50,159 nt of DNA from an uncultured Mycoplasmatota bacterium (lineage in GTDB: Bacteria > Bacillota_I > Bacilli_A > RF39 > UBA660): positions 1-50,159 of the forward strand of contig CAMMJA010000005.1 in NCBI GenBank assembly GCA_946497145.1, read 5' to 3'. The translations under genes were made by a program, and so were the position numbers. The notes under the pieces were generated by a model. The model worked only from the letters and a program-made list of their open reading frames with translations, was not told where the DNA came from and made no database searches. Shown one piece after another: positions 7,719 to 10,005 of this stretch (positions within the stretch are counted from its first letter, which is position 1; the number at the start of each line of letters is the position of its first letter).

Positions 7719-7750
7719 TTGACATATATTAACCTTTAAGTTAATATATA
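7719..7750 (+). promoter_or_regulatory. Promoter with embedded palindromic operator upstream of the toxin-antitoxin pair
   Basis: TTGACA at 7719-7724, a 17-base spacer and TAATAT at 7742-7747 form a strong promoter. The spacer and -10 are covered by a perfect inverted repeat, ATATATTAAC (7724-7733), six bases, GTTAATATAT (7740-7749). An operator in this position would block RNA polymerase, which is typical of autorepressed toxin-antitoxin operons; the XRE protein two genes downstream is the likely ligand (inference). Confidence 0.75.
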
Positions 7751-7811
7751 TTTGTAGATTGAAGGAGGGAGTCAATAAGGAAAATAACCAGGTGTTTTGG
7801 GAGGTTGCGGA

Positions 7812-8131
7812 ATGTATTTAAATCGAACATATTTTAAAAACCAAGAAAAAAATTAAAAAGATATCCAGAAGAACAAAGAAGATTACAAAAAATCTTACTT
7901 TTTATGAAACAGTGTGAAACTTATCAAGAATTAAAACATCATTCATTGGCTGCTTTGTATGGTTTTGAAGAACTACGTCATACTATGTCAGGATACTGCG
8001 GTTTTAGTTTATGTAGAGCGAACAGTGGTATGATTCGTTTGATTTTTAGAGTTGATATTAAAACCAACGTAATTGATTTGATCTATATCAGTATGGATCA
8101 TTATATAGATTTTAAGCGATCTATTTCATAA
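7812..8131 (+). CDS. RelE/HigB-like toxin, coding region interrupted by a frame change
   Basis: The frame with good translation signals starts at ATG 7812, seven bases after GGGAGG (7799-7804), and reads MYLNRTYFKNQEKN before TAA at 7854-7856. The -1 frame continues without a stop as LKRYPEEQRRLQKILLF into a 75-residue segment (from an internal ATG at 7904) that ends at 8131. Joined, they give about 106 residues with the pattern of RelE/ParE/HigB toxins: basic helix start, a KILLFMKQC helix, LKHHSLAALYGFEELRH, then beta strands IRLIFRVD and VIDLIYIS and a HYIDF ending. The joint is A_AAA_AAT followed by TAA, a possible -1 slip site, or else a one-base indel in a run of seven A. The internal ATG has no ribosome site. 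Expected role: mRNA interferase held in check by the next gene. Confidence 0.65.
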
Positions 8132-8156: not shown

Positions 8157-9191
8157 ATGGAAGGAATACGATTTAAAGATTATCTTTTAGATTATTTGGA
8201 GTTTAATCATATTTCAAATAAAGATTTTGCCAATCGTATTGGTGTGTCTCAAAAACATCTTATTGATATTTTATCTGGTAAAAAGGATTTGTCAGATCAA
8301 GTCATACGAAACATTTCTTTTGTTACGAATATTTCGGTCGATTACATTTATAAAATAGAATCGAATTATAAGTTTGAGATGCAAATAAAAGAATATTTAG
8401 TAAAAGAAAACTTAACACAGATACAGTATTTAAATAAGTTTAATTATAATTATTTAAAAAAAGTAAATTATATTCCATTTGTTGATAAAGAAGATTCATT
8501 AGAAGCGATCAAAGATATTTTGAAATTTTTAAGAGTCACTAGTCCTGAGCAAGTATATGAAATTGATCAAGTGACATACTTTAAAAGTAAAAATGAAAAG
8601 CCGGAGTTATTATTTTTATGGTTAGAGAAATGTTATAGAGAGACATTAAAACAAAAAGTTGAAAAATATGCGAAAGAAAATATTGTAGATTTAGTTAATT
8701 ATATTGTAGAATGTGCAAAACAAGGAAAATTTAACGAAGAAGAATTGATTCGTGTTTTTAATCAGAAGGGCGTTTATTTAGTAATACAAGATGATATTCC
8801 TGGATCCAAAATTCGCGGGGCTTTTCGCGTACATCGCCATACACCGTCTATTTATTTAACACACAAACATAAACGAATTGCTGACGTTTATTTTGCGTTG
8901 TTACATGAACTTGCTCATTGTAAAACCGATTTTAACAAAGCAAAGGCCACAAATTTGATATCTTTTGATACATCAAAAGAGGAAATAGAAAATAAAGCAG
9001 ATTTACAGGCCTATGATTGGATGGTTCCAAATGATTACTATCAAAATGTTTGTACGAAACCAGATTATGACATTGCTAGTGAGAAAAATTATCCAAAATC
9101 ATTTATACTATATCGTTTGGCAGCAGATCATTATATTGATTATAGAAATAAAAAATATCAAACTTATAATTGCTTATTAGAGAAAATATAA
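8157..9191 (+). CDS. XRE helix-turn-helix / ImmA-IrrE metallopeptidase fusion protein (probable antitoxin-repressor)
   Basis: This 344-residue protein has an N-terminal XRE helix-turn-helix (about residues 14-65: NKDFANRIGVSQKHLIDILSG), a helical middle, and a C-terminal ImmA/IrrE (COG2856) zinc peptidase domain with HELAH at 250-254 and a downstream acidic helix EIENKADLQAYDWMVP. AGGGGTGAG precedes the ATG by a few bases. It follows the toxin-like gene by 25 bases and both lie behind one promoter with a palindromic operator. Family precedent: such fusions act as antitoxins of RelE/HigB-type toxins or as phage/ICE derepression proteases that cut their partner repressor. Here the toxin neighbour favours antitoxin and autorepressor. 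Codon use here looks more AT-rich than in the flanking housekeeping genes, in keeping with a mobile module. Confidence 0.88.
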   Translation: MEGIRFKDYLLDYLEFNHISNKDFANRIGVSQKHLIDILSGKKDLSDQVIRNISFVTNISVDYIYKIESNYKFEMQIKEYLVKENLTQIQYLNKFNYNYLKKVNYIPFVDKEDSLEAIKDILKFLRVTSPEQVYEIDQVTYFKSKNEKPELLFLWLEKCYRETLKQKVEKYAKENIVDLVNYIVECAKQGKFNEEELIRVFNQKGVYLVIQDDIPGSKIRGAFRVHRHTPSIYLTHKHKRIADVYFALLHELAHCKTDFNKAKATNLISFDTSKEEIENKADLQAYDWMVPNDYYQNVCTKPDYDIASEKNYPKSFILYRLAADHYIDYRNKKYQTYNCLLEKI

Positions 9192-9240: not shown

Positions 9241-9267
9241 GATATGATAAATATAATTAAATATAAG
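9239..9267 (+). promoter_or_regulatory. Promoter of the T-box / alaS transcript
   Basis: TTGATA at 9239-9244, 17 bases, TATAAG at 9262-9267. The T-box leader begins about a dozen bases downstream. An alternative -10 (TATAAT, 9252-9257) has no -35 at the right distance. Confidence 0.55.
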
Positions 9268-9279
9268 AAACGTAGAAAA

Positions 9280-9450
9280 AGAAAAGTATAGATCGTTTGA
9301 CTATTAAGAGAGTCGAGGAGGGTGGAAACTTGACAAGAGGCGATCTAGAAAGCTACTTTGGAGTTTCTTCGGGTTGACCGTTATCAAAATTAAGACCTTA
9401 TTAGGATGGTACCGTGTTTTTTGCACTCCTAATTTAGAGGTCTTTTCTTA
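9280..9450 (+). promoter_or_regulatory. Alanine T-box leader (tRNA-sensing riboswitch)
   Basis: The conserved T-box AGGATGGTACCG lies at 9403-9414, inside an antiterminator made of TTAGGA/TCCTAA and GTG/CAC with the TGGTACC bulge that binds the tRNA acceptor end. Stem I pairs AAGT (9284-9287) with ACTT (9355-9358) and AGATCG (9290-9295) with CGATCT (9341-9346). The 3' side of the internal loop reads AGAAAGCT, which puts the specifier GCU (alanine) at 9352-9354, in agreement with alaS downstream. AAGACCT (9392-9398) can pair with AGGTCTT (9438-9444) ahead of a T-rich tract and is the candidate terminator stem; I did not fold the competing structures. Uncharged tRNA-Ala should raise expression of the kinase, alaS and perhaps holA. 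Confidence 0.9.
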
Positions 9451-9465
9451 ATATGAGGAGGAATT

Positions 9466-10005
9466 ATGAAACTATATTTGGTTTGTGGAAAAGCAAGACA
9501 TGGAAAGGATACGACGGCTGGTTTTATTCAAGATTACTATGCTAAAAATGGGAAAAAGGCCTGCATTATGCATATTGGAAACTATATCAAACACTTTGCA
9601 AAAGATTATTTTGGTTGGGATGGGAAAGAAGAGACCAAGCCAAGAGAATTATTGCAGCAACTAGGAACTAATATTATACGTGAACAGATGAACAAACCGT
9701 ATTTTTTTACGAATCGCCTGTTAGAAGACATGGAAGTGCTTGCAAGATTTTACGATGTTTGTGTGGTTGCTGACGTGAGGTTGCCGCTTGAAATAGAAGA
9801 GGTAAAGAAGCATTATCCAGATGTCACTATCATTCATGTAGAGCGCCCTAATTTTGAAAACGAACTTACTGAAAAACAGCGCAATCACGTTACAGAAACA
9901 GGACTAGATCATTACGATGATTATGACTATCGATTAGAAAATACTACTTTGGAATATTTACAACAACAAGTAGAAGAATTGGTTAGAAAAGAGGAAGTAA
10001 AATGA
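9466..10005 (+). CDS. P-loop kinase, deoxynucleoside monophosphate kinase-like
   Basis: This 179-residue protein starts with a P-loop, LVCGKARHGKDTTAGFI (about residues 4-20). Later features are KPRELLQQLGTNIIRE and VVADVRLPLEIEEVKKHYP, the arrangement seen in phage T4-type dNMP kinases and related nucleotide kinases. It probably phosphorylates a (deoxy)nucleoside monophosphate, but the substrate is unproven. GAGGAGG lies five bases before the ATG. Its TGA overlaps the alaS ATG in ATGA (10002-10005), so the two are translationally coupled and both lie behind the alanine T-box. No direct link between a nucleotide kinase and tRNA charging is known to me. Confidence 0.75.
   Translation: MKLYLVCGKARHGKDTTAGFIQDYYAKNGKKACIMHIGNYIKHFAKDYFGWDGKEETKPRELLQQLGTNIIREQMNKPYFFTNRLLEDMEVLARFYDVCVVADVRLPLEIEEVKKHYPDVTIIHVERPNFENELTEKQRNHVTETGLDHYDDYDYRLENTTLEYLQQQVEELVRKEEVK

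Follow-up and report, generated by a model that had tools for sequence, protein, structure and literature searches.

Toxin-antitoxin (TA) modules of type II whose toxin belongs to the RelE superfamily are represented in Escherichia coli by HigBA (PDB 5ifg, 6kml), in which the toxin gene precedes the gene of an XRE antitoxin and an inverted-repeat operator lies inside the promoter. The PD-lambda-2 anti-phage system of the same bacterium also begins with a HigB-like gene, followed by a gene for an XRE-peptidase fusion, and in this system it was the second component that was toxic when alone and the first that rescued it (PMC9519451). Genes interrupted at a run of A can be read through in two ways. 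For programmed -1 ribosomal frameshifting in E. coli, A_AAA_AAG is an efficient shift site, far ahead of A_AAA_AAC and A_AAA_AAA, and in dnaX of some bacteria a stop codon follows directly after the shift site (PMC5009743). For slippage of RNA polymerase, an A11 run rescues the interrupted tssM1 of Citrobacter rodentium at about 20% (PMC4256274), and with the E. coli enzyme no reporter rescue was detected on runs of fewer than eight A (PMC6260861).

The window, that is, the whole stretch of DNA analysed here (50,159 nucleotides), contains a HigB-like toxin gene with a broken reading frame upstream of an intact HigA-like antitoxin gene. This toxin locus occurs in a single copy in the source genome, a 976-kb MAG of 36 contigs. 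Its features are as follows.

7719-7749, plus strand: promoter TTGACA-N17-TAATAT (sigma-70-like match) with an embedded operator, the perfect inverted repeat ATATATTAAC-CTTTAA-GTTAATATAT
7799-7804, plus strand: Shine-Dalgarno-like GGGAGG of the toxin gene
7812-7856, plus strand: 5' part of the toxin gene, 0 frame, 14 codons to TAA, matching the N-terminus of intact homologues (e.g., MHINRENFKNEEKK in L003)
7846-7852, plus strand: run of seven A (A7)
7853-8131, plus strand: remainder of the toxin, HigB/RelE fold, -1 frame, free of internal stops (from the sequence and homologue comparison)
8157-9191, plus strand: HigA-like antitoxin, intact, 344 aa, with an XRE helix-turn-helix and an IrrE/M78-type domain bearing a HELAH motif (matches to HTH_3 and PADLOC PD-Lambda-2_B)

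The anatomy given in the preliminary description was confirmed. The ATG at 7812 stands behind the good ribosome site GGGAGG and opens a frame of 14 codons (MYLNRTYFKNQEKN) that ends at TAA 7854-7856; the toxin continues in the -1 frame, open from 7838 to 8131 (97 codons), where no ATG, GTG or TTG occurs before ATG 7904; and the heptamer A_AAA_AAT (7847-7853), of the slippery pattern X_XXY_YYZ, is placed immediately 5' of the stop. Initiation at ATG 7904 was considered and rejected, as it would cost the first ~31 residues, which correspond to strand 1, helix 1 and the greater part of helix 2 in the AlphaFold model of G197, the most closely related complete homologue. With its frame broken at 7846-7856, the gene as it stands would not be expected to express a full-length toxin.

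The assignment of this gene to the RelE/HigB-like toxins, also made in the preliminary description, is supported by the model of G197 (pLDDT 92.6), which matches E. coli HigB with a TM score of 0.67-0.70 as well as YoeB and YafQ (Foldseek probability 1.00). Searched on its own against Pfam and NCBIfam, the -1 frame product of the window gave no match; 7 of 12 members of the family match the PHROG RelE-like toxin at weak to moderate levels (best 7.6e-06). On the modelled fold, the gene is predicted to encode a RelE/HigB-fold toxin, and the invariant residues of the family are kept in the window copy. Further genomes of the same family contain homologues; among the named records, MAGs with the labels Bacilli, Mollicutes or Clostridiales predominate, and Traorella massiliensis is also represented. 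Scanning of genome contigs with the window protein alone returned no loci and with the alignment A3 returned 14, and the comparisons below comprise 27 distinct homologues. No close relatives of the toxin were found among plasmids, phages and viral contigs.

The antitoxin matches HTH_3 (1.1e-05), Peptidase_M78 (0.0016, under the cut-off of that model) and PADLOC PD-Lambda-2_B (5.7e-22), and its plasmid relatives carry the annotation HigA family antitoxin. The toxin gene is thus accompanied, as in HigB/RelE modules, by an adjacent, co-directional antitoxin with its own DNA-binding domain and by an operator. With 0 mismatches allowed, the window contains the operator pattern TTGACATATATTAACNNNNANGTTAATATAT a single time and none of 100 shuffles contains it, and the promoter-operator element recurs 5' of nearly all homologous operons; based on this recurrence and on the inverted repeat embedded in the promoter, the operon is probably autoregulated. 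Both congeners carry the same flanking genes but no toxin or antitoxin gene in the interval, where about 69 and 130 bp separate the matching stretches, and this empty site suggests that the module was probably acquired by horizontal transfer. A T-box leader is located at 9264-9433 (plus strand; Rfam RF00230, 78.4 bits, E 1.3e-17, under the gathering score of 93), 5' of a nucleoside-monophosphate-kinase-like gene (9466) and of alaS (10002).

The toxin is encoded in a single continuous frame from the equivalent start in 22 of the 27 homologues. The preliminary description had proposed that related strains with one continuous frame would speak against recoding, and such frames were indeed found, at the level of species. 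At the junction, close homologues encode Glu-Lys-Lys-Leu/Ile, and loss of one base from these A-rich codons produces A_AAA_AAT plus TAA automatically, so that the junction carries no independent information. In L007 (G098) the intact toxin has GAA AAA AAT ATA at the same codons; the same heptamer is read there in the unshifted frame and hence does not mark a shift. The split arrangement is found in two of the 27 homologues, on separate branches, the second being L073 from another assembly, with the identical lesion GAA AAA AAT TAA (MKIQRKNFKNEEKN*) followed by an open -1 frame. The nearest relatives of L073 (L072 and L077) have GAA AAG AAA TTA at the site and lack the lesion, and the antitoxin tree cannot be reconciled with fewer than two origins, which indicates that the same lesion arose at least twice independently. 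A stop at the same codon in L008 was considered as a third case of recoding and rejected, since frame 0 resumes after the stop and the antitoxin has a nonsense codon too.

The sequence GAA AAA AAA occurs at the site in none of the homologues listed, and in intact copies the Glu-Lys-Lys codons (toxin codons 12-14, compared from L003 to L077) are always interrupted by G (GAG AAA AAA, GAA AAG AAA or GAA AAA AAG). This small sample suggests that A8 is avoided at these codons, consistent with instability of A8. The interrupted runs would be more in keeping with a mutational hot spot than with a conserved device.

Based on the available evidence, it is likely, and with considerable confidence, that a HigB-like toxin was recently inactivated by slippage in an A run within a horizontally acquired HigB/HigA-like type II module. 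A single base would have been lost from the run encoding Glu-Lys-Lys, an event that spared the promoter and the antitoxin gene, and the slippery heptamer and the TAA would be by-products of that loss. Translation from ATG 7812 would now yield a peptide of 14 residues that breaks off within helix 1 of the toxin fold. The antitoxin would be translated from a separate ribosome site of its own and presumably continues to repress the operon. Of the two readings offered in the preliminary description, a simple indel that silences the toxin appears better than a programmed frameshift, given the relatives with continuous frames and the automatic origin of heptamer and stop. Two observations stand against inactivation: the remaining toxin frame is fully open with its conserved residues kept, as would also be expected of a gene that is still expressed, and the occurrence of the same heptamer and stop in two independent copies might be a sign of selection for recoding.

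Under neutrality, the absence of stops in the -1 frame bounds the age of the lesion at about 0.15 substitutions per site, and the open frame together with the conserved residues implies either that the lesion is recent or that some product is still made. Values of dN/dS for L073 versus L072 (toxin 0.25, antitoxin 0.23) were dropped as a test of continued function because the plainly dead toxin copy of L077 scores about 0.32 too.

Toxins are broken in five of the 27 homologues, two of them (the window and L073) by the same A-run event, and in four of these five the antitoxin is intact (window, L073, L076 and L077). The frame of L076 is broken in its second half, L077 has a TAG and an internal deletion, and L008 (G312) has an in-frame TAA in the toxin in addition to its antitoxin nonsense codon. 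In the same genome, on a contig shared with L074, the module L032 (about 1500-1827 for the toxin and about 1797-2858 for the antitoxin) has both genes interrupted by in-frame TAA codons with the frames otherwise conserved, which may reflect a decaying module or else a peculiarity of the assembly or of the use of stop codons there. A remnant module is also seen at L063 (G137:C53:500-2600), where the antitoxin homologue contains three in-frame TAA codons and the toxin is reduced to a short toxin-like fragment. As the second gene is tolerated once the first is lost, the conventional polarity, with the first gene as toxin and the second as antitoxin, seems more likely than the inverted behaviour of PD-lambda-2.

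Homopolymers are prone to error in some sequencing technologies. As the window is MAG sequence, the break might be an error of sequencing or assembly that conceals a continuous toxin gene, although the large open reading frames of the window seem to be of full length even with 46 A-runs of at least 7 in its intact genes, the identical lesion is present in a second, independent assembly (the contig of L073 has a SPAdes-style name and coverage of about 16.6), and toxin decay occurs elsewhere in the homologue family. We consider such an error unlikely. An equally small likelihood is given to the idea that the A run is a weak point favoured by selection, where a split toxin is kept in some lineages and is either read at trace level by slippage or switched by changes in run length. 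If true, a trace-dosage or phase-variable toxin would reside beside a constant antitoxin, and the origin of the split on two occasions would be explained.

The proposal that programmed -1 frameshifting at A_AAA_AAT limits the dosage of the toxin, put forward in the preliminary description, was not borne out and is judged very unlikely. The heptamer does lie directly before the 0-frame stop, a -1 shift would restore the normal length of the toxin, L073 acquired the arrangement independently and the stop placement has a precedent in dnaX (PMC5009743). Against this, intact homologues do without a shift in 22 of 27 cases, L007 reads the heptamer in frame and the closest relatives of L073 lack the arrangement, so the split is not a conserved trait of the family. 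In the intact genes of the window the heptamer is no more frequent than expected by chance: A_AAA_AAT occurs in frame 19 times (codon-shuffle mean 14.4, sd 3.6), X_XXY_YYZ in frame 206 times (mean 183) and A-runs of at least 7 at a mean expectation of 45.7 for the 46 observed. Stimulators were likewise absent around the heptamer, with no Shine-Dalgarno at stimulatory distance (the nearest similar sequence is about 40 nt upstream) and unremarkable downstream RNA folding (z = +0.19 and +1.04 versus shuffles). The site also differs from A_AAA_AAG, the efficient one in E. coli (PMC5009743); no test of A_AAA_AAT as a shift site was found.

Transcriptional slippage on the A run could add a base to some mRNAs and so yield a little toxin, a leaky, unprogrammed rescue like that of tssM1 on A11 in C. 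rodentium (PMC4256274). The run consists of A7 only, within the range below eight A where no reporter rescue was detected with E. coli RNA polymerase (PMC6260861), and strong slippage would be costly genome-wide with as many A-runs as the intact genes of the window contain; this route is held to be highly improbable. Scarcely any weight is likewise given to a phase-variable contingency tract, in which changes in run length would turn the toxin on and off, since two lesions that arose independently in this run and A-rich codons at this position in most members would suit such a switch but the tract is short, unconserved and interrupted by G in most relatives, contrary to the requirements of a switch that is maintained.

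Read as the inactivation of a toxin, the locus is an ordinary one, of modest interest as a recurrent case of toxin-first decay in a TA module, of which it would be a clear example. It also illustrates a trap for recoding predictions, as the loss of one base in Lys-rich codons of AT-rich genomes can generate a perfect-looking slippery heptamer with its stop. A literature search of limited scope found no papers on frameshifting in toxin-antitoxin systems, and recoding here, if real, would to our knowledge be the first such dosage control in a HigB-like toxin.

Compared with tssM1 and dnaX, where slippage or frameshifting rescues the product, the locus likewise has an A-run 5' of a premature stop and a remainder open in another frame. 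Unlike them it has A7 rather than A11, A_AAA_AAT rather than A_AAA_AAG and no stimulators, and it is known from sequence alone. With PD-lambda-2 (PMC9519451) it shares the HigB-like first gene and the XRE-peptidase fusion as the second, which is matched by the PADLOC model given above. It differs in that relatives here retain the second gene after loss of the first; in place of the three genes of that system, including component C, the next open reading frame is the kinase-like one at 9466 behind the T-box, and PADLOC detected no PD-Lambda-2 component among relatives of the toxin. HigBA is distinguished by the absence of the extra C-terminal ImmA/IrrE (M78) domain found in the antitoxin here, by the very weak sequence similarity of this toxin to HigB families and by an unbroken toxin frame, and is matched by the window locus in gene order, toxin fold, XRE antitoxin and the position of the inverted-repeat operator inside the promoter.
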